Part shown: piece after piece, positions 2,819 through 6,332 of the stretch
Layout: the number at the start of each line of letters is the position of its first letter
How positions within the stretch are numbered: position 1 is the first letter of the stretch
Source of the DNA: Rubellimicrobium roseum
Lineage (GTDB): Bacteria > Pseudomonadota > Alphaproteobacteria > Rhodobacterales > Rhodobacteraceae
Direction of reading: 5' to 3'
Assembly: GCF_006152145.1 (NCBI RefSeq)
Contig: NZ_VDFV01000005.1
Location: forward strand, 62,001-126,000
DNA length: 64,000 nt
Notes under the pieces: model-generated
What the model saw: the letters and a program-made list of their open reading frames with translations, nothing else
Databases searched by the model: none
Told to the model about the DNA's origin: nothing
Position numbers and translations under genes: made by a program

Positions 2819-4174
2819 ATGAAGATTGCGATGATCGGGACGGGCTATGTGGGCCTTGTGTCGGGGGTATGCTTCTCCGACTTCGGCCACGAGGTCGTCT
2901 GCGTCGACAAGCACGAAGGCAAGATCGCGGGCCTCCGCGAAGGCCGCATCCCCATCTACGAGCCCGGCCTCGACGCCCTTCTCGCCCGCAACGTGGCCGA
3001 GGGGCGCCTGTCGTTCACGACCGACCTGCGCGAGGCCGTGGACGGCGCCGACGCGGTCTTCATCGCCGTGGGCACGCCCTCGCGGCGCGGCGACGGCCAC
3101 GCGGACCTGTCCTATGTCTATGCGGCGGCCAAGGAGATCGCCGAGGCCGCGACCGCGCCCACCACGGTCGTCACGAAATCGACCGTCCCCGTCGGCACCA
3201 ACCGCGAGGTCGCCCGCATCCTGCGCGAGACGCGCCCCGACATGACCTTCGCCGTCGCCTCCAACCCCGAGTTCCTGCGCGAAGGGGCGGCCATCGAGGA
3301 CTTCATGAAGCCCGACCGCGTGGTGGTGGGCCTCGACGGCCATTCCGACCTCGCGCGCGCCACCATGGCGGACATCTACAAGCCGCTGTTCCTGCGCGAA
3401 TTCCCGATCGTCTACACCGACCTCGAATCGGCCGAGATGATCAAGTACGCCGCCAACGCCTTCCTCGCGATCAAGATCACCTTCATCAACGAGGTCGCCG
3501 CCCTCTGCGAGAAGGTGGGCGCCGACGTGAAGGCCGTCTCCAAGGGCATCGGCCTTGACGGCCGCATCGGCTCCAAGTTCCTGCACGCCGGCCCCGGCTA
3601 CGGCGGCTCGTGCTTCCCCAAGGACACCAACGCCTTCGCCCAGACGGGCCAAGACTTCGGTCAGCCGCTGCGGCTGGTGGAATCCACCATCACCGTCAAC
3701 GACGCCGTCAAGGCGCGCATGGTGGACAAGATCCTCGCGCTCGCGGGCGGCAGCCTTCAGGGCAAGTCGGTCGCGGTCCTGGGCGTGACCTTCAAGCCCA
3801 ACACCGACGACATGCGCGACGCCCCCTCGCTCGCCATCGTCCCCGCGCTCCAGGCGGCGGGCGCCACGATCCGCGCCGTAGACCCCCAGGGCCGGCGCGA
3901 GGGCGAGCATCTCCTGCCTGGCGTGCAATGGTCCGAGGACCCCTACTCCGCCGCCGAGGGCGCGCACATGGTCGTGGTCCTGACCGAATGGAACCAGTTC
4001 CGCGCCCTCGACCTCAAGCGCCTCGCGGGCGGCATGGCCGAGCCGCGCATGGCCGACCTGCGCAACGTCTACGGCCCGGACGAGGCTCGCGCCGCAGGCT
4101 TCCTGGCCTACGACGCCGTGGGCCGCCAGGGATTCGGCCCCGTGGCCCAGGCGACGCGCGCCGTCGCCGAATAG
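2819..4174 (+). CDS. ugd: UDP-glucose 6-dehydrogenase
   Basis: A 451-residue member of the UDP-glucose/GDP-mannose dehydrogenase family. It oxidises UDP-glucose to UDP-glucuronate with two NAD+ for envelope polysaccharide synthesis. The NAD-binding GTGYVGLVSG (residues 7-16) opens the Rossmann domain. KSTVPVGTN and EFLREGAAIEDFMKPDRVV follow. The catalytic cysteine lies in GGSCFPKDT at about residue 265, and GVTFKPNTDDMRDAPS marks the C-terminal UDP-binding domain. The start is supported by GGAGG upstream. It stands alone here with no glycosyltransferase neighbours, and a strong hairpin follows 30 bases after the stop. Confidence 0.95.
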   Translation: MKIAMIGTGYVGLVSGVCFSDFGHEVVCVDKHEGKIAGLREGRIPIYEPGLDALLARNVAEGRLSFTTDLREAVDGADAVFIAVGTPSRRGDGHADLSYVYAAAKEIAEAATAPTTVVTKSTVPVGTNREVARILRETRPDMTFAVASNPEFLREGAAIEDFMKPDRVVVGLDGHSDLARATMADIYKPLFLREFPIVYTDLESAEMIKYAANAFLAIKITFINEVAALCEKVGADVKAVSKGIGLDGRIGSKFLHAGPGYGGSCFPKDTNAFAQTGQDFGQPLRLVESTITVNDAVKARMVDKILALAGGSLQGKSVAVLGVTFKPNTDDMRDAPSLAIVPALQAAGATIRAVDPQGRREGEHLLPGVQWSEDPYSAAEGAHMVVVLTEWNQFRALDLKRLAGGMAEPRMADLRNVYGPDEARAAGFLAYDAVGRQGFGPVAQATRAVAE

Positions 4175-4204
4175 GGCCGCGCCCGTCTTCCCTGCTCCTT
4201 CGCG

Positions 4205-4239
4205 CGCCCGGCGGCTCCCTCCGCCGGGCGTTCTCGTTT
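4205..4239 (+). terminator. hairpin terminator of ugd
   Basis: A perfect 10-bp stem (CGCCCGGCGG at 4205-4214, CCGCCGGGCG at 4221-4230) with a 6-nt loop, followed by TTCTCGTTT. The U-rich tail is weak but the stem is very stable. It sits about 30 bases past the ugd stop codon. Confidence 0.65.
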
Positions 4240-4261
4240 CGTCGCCAAACGCGCCATACTT

Positions 4262-4279
4262 GTGTCAAATGCATGACAC
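4262..4279. promoter_or_regulatory. 18-bp inverted repeat GTGTCA-N6-TGACAC
   Basis: A perfect dyad with 6-bp arms around AATGCA, located just after CGCCATACT, which resembles a sigma-32 type -10 element, and overlapping the first codon of the small ORF. The position fits an operator for the small ORF/sRNA transcript. No regulator for it is recognised. Confidence 0.4.
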
Positions 4280-4392
4280 GCATGACGAACGAAGCCAGCA
4301 GCCTGCATCATCTGCTCAGAAATCAATCAGATACGCCCAGCCAGGCAGCCTACGACATCGCGACTTATGCCGCCAATGCATATCCGCCCTGA
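4273..4392 (+). CDS. possible small protein of 39 residues upstream of the sRNA
   Basis: A short open frame starting MTRMTNEASSLHHLLRNQ and ending DIATYAANAYPP. A second start at 4282 would give 36 residues. The amino-acid composition looks protein-like and hydrophilic, but no Shine-Dalgarno sequence precedes either ATG and no domain is recognised. In Rhodobacter the related CcsR RNAs are co-transcribed with a small DUF1127 gene. This ORF holds the same position but lacks the Arg-rich DUF1127 pattern. It may be a lineage-specific small protein, or simply the 5' part of the RNA. Confidence 0.3.
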   Translation: MTRMTNEASSLHHLLRNQSDTPSQAAYDIATYAANAYPP

Positions 4393-4439
4393 CCACTCGT
4401 CCATTGTGCAGGTGCAGAAAAACCGGCAAAAGGGTTCTC

Positions 4440-4567
4440 GGAACGAACGGCAAGCCATCCTCCTCCCGGTGAGCCGTAAACTGACAGGTTAGGCCGTCTC
4501 TCCTCCCTGATGACGGCATGAACCATAAGGCGGCGCCCTCCTCCTCCCTGGGCTGCCGCCTTTTTTT
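4440..4567 (+). ncRNA. CcsR/'cuckoo'-type small RNA with three anti-Shine-Dalgarno hairpins
   Basis: Three consecutive stem-loops are visible. Hairpin 1 has ACGGC (4447-4451) pairing with GCCGT (4473-4477), with CCTCCTCCC at 4459-4467 inside. Hairpin 2 has GCCGTC (4493-4498) pairing with GACGGC (4512-4517), with loop CTCCTCCC at 4500-4507. Hairpin 3 has AAGGCGGC-GCCC (4527-4538) pairing with GGGC-T-GCCGCCTT (4550-4562), loop CCTCCTCCC at 4540-4548, and ends in seven T's, making it a textbook intrinsic terminator. CUCCUCCC loops in serial hairpins define the alphaproteobacterial CcsR/cuckoo (suhB/ar14-related) RNAs. In Rhodobacter these are induced by RpoHI/RpoHII under oxidative and other stresses. 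The 5' end is not defined by the sequence; transcription may begin near 4265 and include the small ORF. Confidence 0.75.
4527..4567 (+). terminator. intrinsic terminator (third hairpin of the small RNA)
   Basis: A 12-bp G/C-rich stem with one unpaired T, a loop carrying CCTCCTCCC, and an uninterrupted T7 tract at 4561-4567. It ends 6 bases before the stop codon of the convergent oxidoreductase gene. Confidence 0.85.
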
Positions 4568-4572
4568 CTTTC

Positions 4573-5586
4573 TCAGATCGCCAGCCCGATCTTGCCGAAA
4601 TGCGCGCCGTCCCGCTCGTGGGCGAAGGCCGCGGCCGCCTCCTCCAGCGGGAAGACCCGATCCACCACGGGCCGCAGCGCCAGCGTGTCCAGCGCACGCA
4701 CGAAGTCCCCCTGCATCGCCCGGCTTCCCACGATCAGCCCCTGCAGCCGCTGCTGCCGCCGCATGAGGAGCCCCGTGGGCACCTCGCCCCCACGCCCGGC
4801 CAGCACTCCGATCAGCGCGATGTGACCGCCCACGCGGCAGGCCTCGATCGACTGCGGCAGCGTCCCCGCGCCGCCCACCTCGATCACGTGGTCCGCGCCG
4901 CGTCCTTCCGTCATCTCCAGCACCCGGCCCGCCCACTCGGGCACGGCGCGGTAGTTGATCCCGTGCGCGGCCCCCAGCTCCCGCGCCCGCTCCAGCTTCG
5001 CGTCGGACGAGGAGGTGACGATCACCCGGGCGCCCATCGCCCGCGCGATCTGGAGCGCCCAGATCGACACGCCCCCCGTCCCCAGCGCCAGCACCGTGTC
5101 CCCGGCCTTCAGCCCGCCGTCCACCACCAGAGCCCGCCAGGCGGTCAGCCCCGCCGTGGTGATGGTCGCGGCCTCGACCGCGCTCCAGCCCTGCGGTGCC
5201 CGCGTGAACCAGCCCGCGGGCGTGACCACGGCCTCGCGCGCGTAGCCATCGATCCCGTCGCCCGGCACGCGGTCGAAATGGTCCACCATACCGGTCGTCC
5301 CGTCCGCCCAGTCGGGGAAGAAGCAGGACACGACCGTGTCGCCCGGCGCGAACTCGGTCACGCCCTCGCCCACCGCCTCGACCTCCCCGGCCCCGTCCGA
5401 CAGCGGGATCAGCCCGTCGCGCAGGCCCGGGCGCCCGCCAGATACCACGCCCAGGTCATGGAAATTGAGCGAGCTGCCCCGCAGCCTCACCCGGATCTCG
5501 CCCGGCCCCGGCGCGCCGGGGTCCTCCGCCTCGACCATCTCCAGCGCATCGAGCCCGCCCGGTGCCCTCAGCCGCAACACCTTCAT
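4573..5586 (-). CDS. zinc-independent alcohol dehydrogenase/quinone oxidoreductase (MDR superfamily)
   Basis: A 337-residue NAD(P)-dependent medium-chain dehydrogenase/reductase. The N-terminal GroES-like domain carries PGEIRVRLRGSSLNFHD and GDGAGEVEAVGEGV-like segments. The cofactor-binding Rossmann domain has ALGTGGVSIWALQIARAMGA at about residues 167-186. The cysteines of the structural zinc loop are absent, and the catalytic-zinc ligand pattern of classical alcohol dehydrogenases is not seen, so it belongs with the zinc-less enoyl/quinone reductase branch. The substrate is unknown. It converges on the small RNA terminator and has no operon partner. Confidence 0.85.
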   Translation of the reverse strand: MKVLRLRAPGGLDALEMVEAEDPGAPGPGEIRVRLRGSSLNFHDLGVVSGGRPGLRDGLIPLSDGAGEVEAVGEGVTEFAPGDTVVSCFFPDWADGTTGMVDHFDRVPGDGIDGYAREAVVTPAGWFTRAPQGWSAVEAATITTAGLTAWRALVVDGGLKAGDTVLALGTGGVSIWALQIARAMGARVIVTSSSDAKLERARELGAAHGINYRAVPEWAGRVLEMTEGRGADHVIEVGGAGTLPQSIEACRVGGHIALIGVLAGRGGEVPTGLLMRRQQRLQGLIVGSRAMQGDFVRALDTLALRPVVDRVFPLEEAAAAFAHERDGAHFGKIGLAI

Positions 5587-5711: not shown

Positions 5712-6332
5712 TCAGGCCACGCGCTTGGCCCGGCGCCGCGCCATCAGGCCCAGACCGGCCAGCCCGCCCGCGAGCAGCGGCAGCGAGGCCGGCACCGGCA
5801 CGGGCGCAACGTCGCCCATGGATTCGTTCAGGTAGATGTCATCGACCAGGAAGTGATTGCCGAAGCCAAGAACCAGTTGGTCGATCGCACCGTCCTGCGC
5901 GCCGAAGGCTTGGTAGCTGCCGTTCAGGGCTGTCTCGACGCTCCAGACCTGAACGCCATCGAGCAGGCCGGTGAGTTGACCGAACAGAGAAGGCTCCCCA
6001 CCCGATTCGGGCACGGTGCTCCAAGCCTTGGCCCAAAGCCCGCCAAAGGTGAAGTCGCTGCCATCGGCCGCCGTGATGACACCCTGACCACCGATGTTGT
6101 TGAGGATTGCGAAGTCGCCGCTCTTGGCTCCGTAATTCCACCAATTGGGCGTAGCGACCAGATCGATCCAGTCCAGCGTGGAATTGAAGCTGAATCCCAG
6201 ATAGGTCGGCATGTCGTCGAAGGTATTCTGAACGCTCCCGCCCGGAACATCCTCAAACGTCAGCACCGCCGCGTTCGCGCCCGAAGCACAAGTCAGGCAG
6301 ACCGCCGCTGCAGCCAAAAGCTTCTTCATCAC
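5712..6332 (-). CDS. secreted protein with VPLPA-CTERM (PEP-CTERM-like) sorting signal
   Basis: A 206-residue exported protein. The signal peptide covers about residues 1-22 (MMKKLLAAAAVCLTCASGAN, then AA). The mature part is rich in Gly, Asn, Asp and aromatic residues (FEDVPGGSVQNTFDDMPTYL) and resembles beta-sandwich PEP-CTERM surface proteins. The C-terminus PVPVPASLPLLAGGLAGLG followed by ARRRAKR is the tripartite VPLPA-CTERM signal: Pro-rich motif, hydrophobic helix, basic tail. In this lineage such signals are thought to be processed by a dedicated exosortase-like enzyme for surface display or EPS association; no such enzyme is in the window. Codon use in the middle is less GC-rich than in its neighbours, suggesting faster evolution or a later origin. 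Confidence 0.8.
   Translation of the reverse strand: MMKKLLAAAAVCLTCASGANAAVLTFEDVPGGSVQNTFDDMPTYLGFSFNSTLDWIDLVATPNWWNYGAKSGDFAILNNIGGQGVITAADGSDFTFGGLWAKAWSTVPESGGEPSLFGQLTGLLDGVQVWSVETALNGSYQAFGAQDGAIDQLVLGFGNHFLVDDIYLNESMGDVAPVPVPASLPLLAGGLAGLGLMARRRAKRVA

Follow-up and report, generated by a model that had tools for sequence, protein, structure and literature searches.

A stand-alone anti-Shine-Dalgarno small-RNA unit in Rubellimicrobium roseum, probably a DUF1127-free relative of the ccaF1-CcsR operons

A 64,000-nucleotide (nt) stretch of the Rubellimicrobium roseum genome (assembly GCF_006152145.1, contig NZ_VDFV01000005.1, positions 62,001 to 126,000; hereafter the window) carries at 4367-4568 what is probably a small-RNA unit with its promoter, related to the ccaF1-CcsR operons but stand-alone and free of DUF1127. 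The unit lacks the DUF1127 frame and the inner hairpins and keeps the signature promoter together with the terminal anti-Shine-Dalgarno hairpins. The reading is carried by the hairpins and their covariation, by the identity of the promoter and its restriction to one family in the samples searched, by a gene of VtlR/LsrB type and by the many sites at which stand-alone copies occur. The proposed RNA consists of the following parts.

4438-4568 (+): proposed small RNA of about 130 nt, its 5' end placed from promoter geometry
4447-4477 (+): hairpin 1, with loop CCUCCUCCC at 4459-4467 in the fold
4493-4517 (+): hairpin 2, with loop CUCCUCCC at 4500-4507 and an extra closure of 4487-4490 with 4521-4524
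4527-4562 (+): hairpin 3, the stem of an intrinsic terminator, with a loop containing CCUCCUCCC at 4540-4548
4561-4567 (+): terminator T7 run, of which the first two T are paired in the fold

The predicted fold of 4435-4570 reproduces exactly the three stems that an initial annotation of this DNA had described, at 4447-4477, 4493-4517 and 4527-4562, and the anti-Shine-Dalgarno loops and T7 terminator it had reported are present in the sequence. The minimum free energy of the 151-nt region is -56.2 kcal/mol (z = -2.9), and 2 of 200 shuffles fold equally well. The motif CTCCTCCC is found at 4460-4467, 4500-4507 and 4541-4548 and once more in the window. This total of four is near the chance expectation of 5.9, so only the clustering is unusual: three of the four fall within 89 nt, and none of 400 Markov-simulated 64-kb windows had three on one strand within 90 nt. 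A simple terminator scan, limited to loops of up to 8 nt, missed the terminator of the RNA because its loop has 11 nt. Under a strict loop rule (motif at least 80% unpaired, enclosing stem of at least 4 bp), two of the three window motifs pass and that of hairpin 1 fails.

Relatives were sought in the eight available genomes of the genus (G000 to G007, G000 being the genome of the window; G001 is 88% and G004 85% complete) by DNA search and with a covariance model whose 10 seeds were stand-alone RNAs, that of the window included. The CUCCUCC RNAs of these genomes are of two kinds. In the first, a small gene is followed by an array of roughly seven hairpins or more; every genome has one, in all eight with a DUF1127-like frame after the promoter according to a home-made profile. 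In the genome of the window the array gene is a DUF1127 gene by Pfam, as are two others that share its promoter. The third of these DUF1127 genes (L054, G000:C107, about 1501-2100) has the composite promoter described below and an apparently decaying hairpin array with one CTCCTCCC and several CUCCC-type remnants; another (L052) has the promoter and no array. The second kind is the three-hairpin stand-alone, in which 49-56 nt separate the promoter element TTGTGC from the first loop motif; the median of this distance is 333 nt in the named loci described below, among the matches listed. Eleven stand-alones, the window included, occur in five of the eight genomes (one in G000, two in G002, three in G003, four in G005 and one in G007), and none was recognised in G001, G004 or G006 among strong model matches. 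The counts cover such strong matches and exclude those scoring less than about 40 bits (such as G007:C41, G000:C120, G002:C33:265987, G003:C47:14050 and G005:C4). A decayed copy in G005 (L140, 4849-4986, minus strand), which has lost its third loop, was left out of the eleven; no TTGTGCA or promoter of this kind lies in the 150 nt upstream of it. L140 directly follows a frame whose sequence reads as an ABC-transporter ATPase.

At E ≤ 1e-10 the model gives 18 matches among 18 window and genus sources, 6 of them the 3' ends of arrays; the final array hairpins can be aligned with the stand-alone RNAs, and so can the linkers between hairpins. In the 18-sequence alignment, which leans towards the structure of the model, 95.8% of the cells are paired. 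Both sides have changed at 13 pairs, compared with a shuffle mean of 7.3 (a value reached by 0 of 500 shuffles), and the structure scores 0.355 for covariation, compared with 0.044-0.116 for slid structures. Hairpin loops hold 39 of the 53 motifs under the strict loop rule, and 10.6% when the flanks are shuffled; of the 14 misses, 13 are third hairpins in which the first C of the motif pairs with the stem, and one is hairpin 1 of the window.

The unit is preceded by a composite promoter with these elements.

4367-4381 (+): exact ATGC-N7-GCAT box with the generic LysR-type T-N11-A form, 22 nt ahead of TTGTGC
4377-4391 (+): TGCATATCCGCCCTG, an overlapping VtlR/LsrB-like box in which GCAT-N3-nG-N3-T is kept
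4404-4417 (+): TTGTGCAGGTGCAG, the proposed -35 region and second half of the composite promoter
4427-4432 (+): expected -10 at a 17-nt spacer, CAAAAG, degenerate

Written as ATGCN7GCAT-N22/23-TTGTGCANNYGCAG, the composite promoter is matched exactly by 4367-4417, at 19 fixed positions and one C/T position. When the upstream sequence was shuffled 20,000 times, an ATGC-N7-GCAT box at a spacing of 22 or 23 arose once. The genome of the window has the pattern exactly four times, before its three DUF1127 genes and in the window. With one genome per genus, 87 of 149 family genomes carry it (reversed control, 0), and it was found in none of 187 genomes outside the family in a sample of the class. 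A separate search with stricter filters and E ≤ 0.1 gave matches in 125 of the 149 family genomes, weak and possibly chance ones included. The ATGC-N7-GCAT box, placed 22 or 23 nt upstream as a second element, is common to the DUF1127 promoters and the stand-alones; among the genus stand-alones it lies at this spacing with at most one mismatch in 10 of 11 (five exact, five with one mismatch).

A scan of named genomes gave at least 116 loci, and all counts for named loci below refer to the 116 listed; by title, these are mostly Rhodobacteraceae-type organisms, some called only 'bacterium' or 'Alphaproteobacteria'. The box spacing is 23 in 63 loci and 22 in 53, never 21 or 24. A DUF1127-like frame follows within 700 nt in 107 of the 116. 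Downstream sequence of 700 nt or more is available for 100 listed loci, and 94 of these carry at least two hairpin motifs within 1.5 kb.

The second half of the promoter invites a different reading, in which it is the operator of PhaR, a sensor of PHB (polyhydroxybutyrate), and the RNA is tied to the storage-granule state. The element TTGTGCANNNGCAGC has four exact places in the genome of the window, before the three DUF1127 genes and just upstream of phaR, and the latter place is what speaks for PhaR. The published PhaR boxes are GC-N3-GC in the consulted parts of PMC12542648 and PMC10888616, however, whereas the spacing here is GC-N4-GC; the genome's own phasin promoter has two GC-N3-GC sites, and the phaR site lacks a LysR-type box 22-23 nt upstream and is not among the four composite matches. 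We consider a PhaR operator highly improbable. At the phaR locus (L051) an exact TTGTGCATCTGCAGC with GC-N4-GC spacing lies at 1501-1515 on the minus strand, just upstream of the gene. The window itself carries TTGTGCANNNGCAGC with one mismatch, at the last base, and at up to one mismatch the element is at noise level (42 matches, 61 for the reversed pattern). An interpretation of TTAGCGCTAA as a LacI-type operator, to which it bears a resemblance, was discarded; TTAGCGCTAA is absent from the window.

A LysR-type regulator of the VtlR/LsrB group is a candidate for binding the upstream box. According to the consulted parts of PMC8844928, PMC12595884 and PMC7486931, the VtlR/LsrB box is GCAT-N3-TG-N3-T or CAATGCAGCCATGCA, it occupies -61 to -49 in the abcR1 promoter of S. 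meliloti, and VtlR activates DUF1127 genes and the AbcR RNAs. In the part of PMC10746234 consulted, LsrB activates the ar14 RNA NfeR1, whose loops silence ntrBC. At the corresponding place the window reads GCAT-ATC-CG-CCC-T against the published GCAT-N3-TG-N3-T, a predicted box only. With a transcription start some 34 nt beyond TTGTGC, the position of the box would be close to that in abcR1. In 85 of the 116 loci, ten positions that the search pattern does not cover agree with the VtlR motif at no more than two mismatches, compared with 0 of 3,424 control 10-mers, and of the motif positions the G is kept in 114 loci and the final T in 115.

For the regulator gene itself, 30 trxB loci of the class were examined; in 15 of them trxB has a LysR protein next to it, and 11 of these proteins were aligned as a query. 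Every genus genome then yields one protein of VtlR/LsrB type (8 of 8; 357-369 bits, the next LysR protein scoring 181), in the genome of the window at G000:C98:102105-102974. In all eight, 50-51 of the first 60 residues are identical to one trxB-linked VtlR-type protein of the class. Synteny of trxB and vtlR was abandoned as a route to the regulator in the genus, and homology search was used instead; a pattern test, itself insensitive, found no trxB-LysR synteny in the eight genus loci. In L271, L274 and L277 the neighbours of trxB read, by sequence, as an Lrp/AsnC-type regulator and a gene like that of sulfate adenylyltransferase.

The immediate surroundings of the RNA contain these features.

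2819-4174 (+): ugd, UDP-glucose/GDP-mannose dehydrogenase family, the upstream neighbour
4204-4231 (+): terminator-like hairpin between ugd and the RNA, from the simple terminator scan
4573-5586 (-): zinc-type medium-chain dehydrogenase, the convergent downstream neighbour

This agrees with the initial annotation, which had placed the RNA downstream of ugd with no DUF1127 gene beside it. All eight genus genomes have ugd, the RNA was found at that site in none of the others, and the other ten stand-alones lie on contigs different from that of ugd. Region 4236-4440 has no counterpart in the seven other genomes. In G003 ugd and the dehydrogenase are adjacent, about 100 bp apart, with the RNA absent. 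The stand-alones are flanked by different genes, and shared sites are limited to two pairs: L032 and L039 have a common CN-hydrolase neighbour, and L047 (G005:C13) and L049 (G005:C14) have a duplicated flank of about 2 kb that is 87% identical. Between L033 and L034 a segment of 213 bp that takes in promoter and RNA is 98.6% identical, and the two differ beyond it. Promoter and RNA thus appear to have moved or been duplicated as a unit. L047 adjoins an ArdC antirestriction gene and L049 lies near a zeta-toxin-like gene; these neighbours and the duplicated DNA suggest that L047 and L049 are carried on mobile elements. The initial annotation had looked to close relatives for conservation of the three loops, and its reading is not refuted by the outcome: the site is not conserved, but the loops are kept in stand-alone copies elsewhere in the genus.

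Loci without the protein frame also occur beyond the genus. Nine of the 116 loci are frame-free, and in six of them (L150, L158, L214, L230, L239 and L253, all in other genera) hairpins directly follow the promoter. Their titles are Roseovarius, Yoonia, Rhodovulum, Paracoccus, a Rhodobacteraceae metagenome-assembled genome (MAG) and Meridianimarinicoccus. L230 (Paracoccus chinensis) has the composite promoter, three hairpins like the window and no DUF1127 frame; L253 has two hairpins and L158 seven. The remaining three are L180, whose sequence ends 18 nt on; L202, with only a short frame ahead of its array; and L205, an AT-rich 'bacterium' MAG without hairpins, which we judge to be a chance match outside the family and kept in the 116. 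The frame-free loci favour the reading as an operon derivative and suggest that DUF1127 was lost more than once, and we infer that evolution ran from operon to stand-alone.

The initial annotation had assigned the RNA to the CcsR/cuckoo/ar14 kind, and this is supported in part. Rfam at its own cut-offs finds no match in the window. The covariance search that the annotation had proposed as a check does return ar14 (RF02344) as best match when run permissively, over the full length at 37.0 bits (E 1.9e-5), without reaching the cut-off of 58.8; CcsR1 (RF02791) scores 21.3 bits, below its gathering cut-off of 65.3. None of 13 related loci, three of them arrays, reaches any Rfam cut-off, and the genus arrays L036, L142 and L031 likewise stay below the CcsR cut-off. 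The layout described for ar14 is present, with three hairpins each exposing CCUCCUCCC and loop 2 being CUCCUCCC preceded by U. The setting published for CcsR, the 3' untranslated region (UTR) of a DUF1127 gene, is not the one seen, since the neighbours are ugd and the dehydrogenase. The architecture, the sub-threshold ar14 match and the homology of the last hairpins to CcsR-like arrays support the assignment in its broad form; by score the RNA is not a member of ar14 or CcsR1, and it lies outside any DUF1127 operon.

The same results bear on whether the RNA is instead a vertically inherited ortholog of rhizobial ar14/NfeR1, with no origin in a DUF1127 operon. The shared layout and CCUCCUCCC loops, the LysR/LsrB box that NfeR1 also has (both from the consulted part of PMC10746234) and the full-length best match to ar14 would be expected of an ortholog. 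On the other hand, the 37-bit score is below the ar14 cut-off, the genus stand-alones share no site except L032/L039 and L047/L049, the 3' ends of arrays match the model with the same inter-hairpin linkers, and the promoter was found in none of the 187 genomes searched outside the family. We regard such orthology as improbable, and descent from a DUF1127-CcsR operon as the better account.

Several observations weigh against that account or against the window copy as an active member of it. The exact composite pattern was not found in 62 of the 149 family genomes, and one stand-alone, L032, has no good box (four mismatches). The inner stem of hairpin 1 is 3 bp, and for this reason the hairpin fails the strict loop rule. 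The T of the published TG in the VtlR box is A or G in 110 of the 116 loci; trxB has no following LysR gene in the three genus loci read (L271, L274 and L277); and the R. sphaeroides ccaF1-CcsR promoter is RpoHI/RpoHII-dependent in the descriptions seen, which mention no LysR regulator for it. The VtlR-like box of the window is three mismatches from the named-loci consensus TGCATwGCnGCATTG, and the window copy may therefore be weak or decaying. Finally, 115 listed named promoters have TA at a 16-nt spacer (70), CATnTT at a 17-nt spacer (34) or neither (11), and the CAAAAG of the window belongs to neither form. This degenerate -10 is the main evidence that the window copy may be weak or dying.

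A rival reading is a decaying pseudo-copy: a stand-alone unit that came to be behind ugd but has lost its -10 and is not expressed. Beyond the -10 and the diverged box, a decayed relative exists in L140, with its third hairpin loop lost and no TTGTGCA upstream, and the RNA was not found at ugd in the other genus genomes. Against decay, the three loops and the terminator of the window are intact and its hairpin stems pair, and the composite promoter is exact at its 19 fixed positions and one C/T position. A missing -10 is no proof of death, since 11 of the 115 listed promoters also have neither form, and L208, where CAAAAC stands ahead of a DUF1127-like frame, shows a comparable -10 within an operon. 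Among the 11 genus stand-alones TA is present in eight, in seven of them as TAACTT or TAACTC at a 17-nt spacer; the -10 is GATCTT in L039 and GATGTT in L141. We consider a pseudo-copy unlikely, and strong expression of the window copy uncertain. The CATnTT form resembles the -10 of a heat-shock sigma factor, a resemblance that would be in line with the RpoHI/RpoHII control published for ccaF1-CcsR.

If the unit is a functional derivative of a DUF1127-CcsR operon, a VtlR/LsrB-type LysR regulator would bind the ATGC-N7-GCAT/GCAT-N3-nG-N3-T box and activate a promoter whose -35 falls in TTGTGCA. An RNA of about 130 nt would then be made, from a start predicted by promoter geometry to its own terminator. 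Its CCUCCUCCC loops on variable stems could pair with GGAGGAGG-like ribosome binding sites and so block translation of several mRNAs. Because neither DUF1127 nor 3' UTR processing would be needed, the stand-alone RNA could add dose or independent timing to the DUF1127-CcsR response. A Shine-Dalgarno-like scan of the window gave 16 lines, some nested and with unverified starts, from which no claim is drawn. The RNA might instead mainly titrate a protein (DUF1127/CcaF1 or another loop-binding protein) and not act on mRNAs. The presence of three DUF1127 genes with this promoter in the same genome speaks for this, but the related NfeR1 acts on mRNA through the same loops in the consulted part of PMC10746234, and we find titration as the main role distinctly improbable. 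An RNA that probably works like an NfeR1/CcsR-type anti-Shine-Dalgarno RNA is best described as a stand-alone derivative of the DUF1127-CcsR operon.

A wider proposal, which we advance tentatively and with somewhat more doubt than conviction, is that the unit is a dispersing small-RNA gene of about 200 bp (VtlR/LsrB-type operator, promoter and hairpin RNA) that parted from the DUF1127-CcsR operon on more than one occasion, leaving its protein partner behind, and was copied to many unrelated intergenic sites in the genus, with four intact copies in one genome; VtlR/LsrB would then be an unrecognised activator of CcsR-type operons family-wide. If true, a global translation brake would have been multiplied and uncoupled from its RNA-binding protein, and the LsrB/VtlR circuit of Rhizobiales (AbcR, NfeR1, DUF1127) and the CcsR-type RNAs in the family of the window would form one conserved stress circuit. 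The proposal gives stand-alone anti-Shine-Dalgarno RNAs a testable origin, in frame loss from an operon of gene plus 3' UTR RNA, and names a concrete candidate regulator for CcsR-type operons, which the descriptions seen otherwise call RpoH-dependent only. It also exposes an annotation gap, as Rfam at its cut-offs recognises none among the window and the 13 related loci.

Three further features lie close by. An inverted repeat, GTGTCA-N6-TGACAC, at 4262-4279 stands directly before a 39-aa frame; this frame ends at a TGA near 4394, overlaps the LysR-type box and has no NCBIfam match. A sorting signal of the VPLPA-CTERM (PEP-CTERM) type (NCBIfam TIGR03370, 32.1 bits) is present in the protein encoded by 5712-6332 on the minus strand.

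We found no published description of a family-wide composite promoter with a VtlR/LsrB-like box and dispersed DUF1127-free units, in a search that did not cover three key cuckoo-family, CcaF1 and CcsR papers. Among known systems, CcsR1-4 with ccaF1 in R. sphaeroides and the CIN1/cuckoo loci have serial CUCCUCC-loop hairpins, as here. The composite promoter precedes DUF1127-like frames and arrays of this type in the named loci, and the terminal hairpins of the genus arrays are homologous to the window RNA. Unlike CcsR, the window RNA has no DUF1127 frame, three hairpins in place of an array and a degenerate -10, and it is proposed to be its own short transcript, whereas CcsR is matured from a 3' UTR, by RNase E in the descriptions of R. 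sphaeroides consulted. With ar14/NfeR1 of Sinorhizobium and other Rhizobiales it shares three anti-Shine-Dalgarno hairpins, variable stems and its own LysR-box promoter (consulted part of PMC10746234), but it falls below the Rfam cut-off, lies in another genomic context and has a composite promoter confined, in the samples searched, to the family of the window. The VtlR/LsrB regulon of Rhizobiales, with its AbcR small RNAs and DUF1127 small proteins, likewise has a LysR-type box before DUF1127 genes and small RNAs; the box of the named loci is close to TGCATGGCTGCATTG, and each genus genome has one VtlR/LsrB-type protein. It differs in that the box here is GCAT-N3-RG-N3-T and not TG in 110 of the 116 listed loci, that the trxB-vtlR neighbourhood is not seen in the genus, and that the predicted box precedes anti-Shine-Dalgarno arrays and stand-alones in another group of bacteria.
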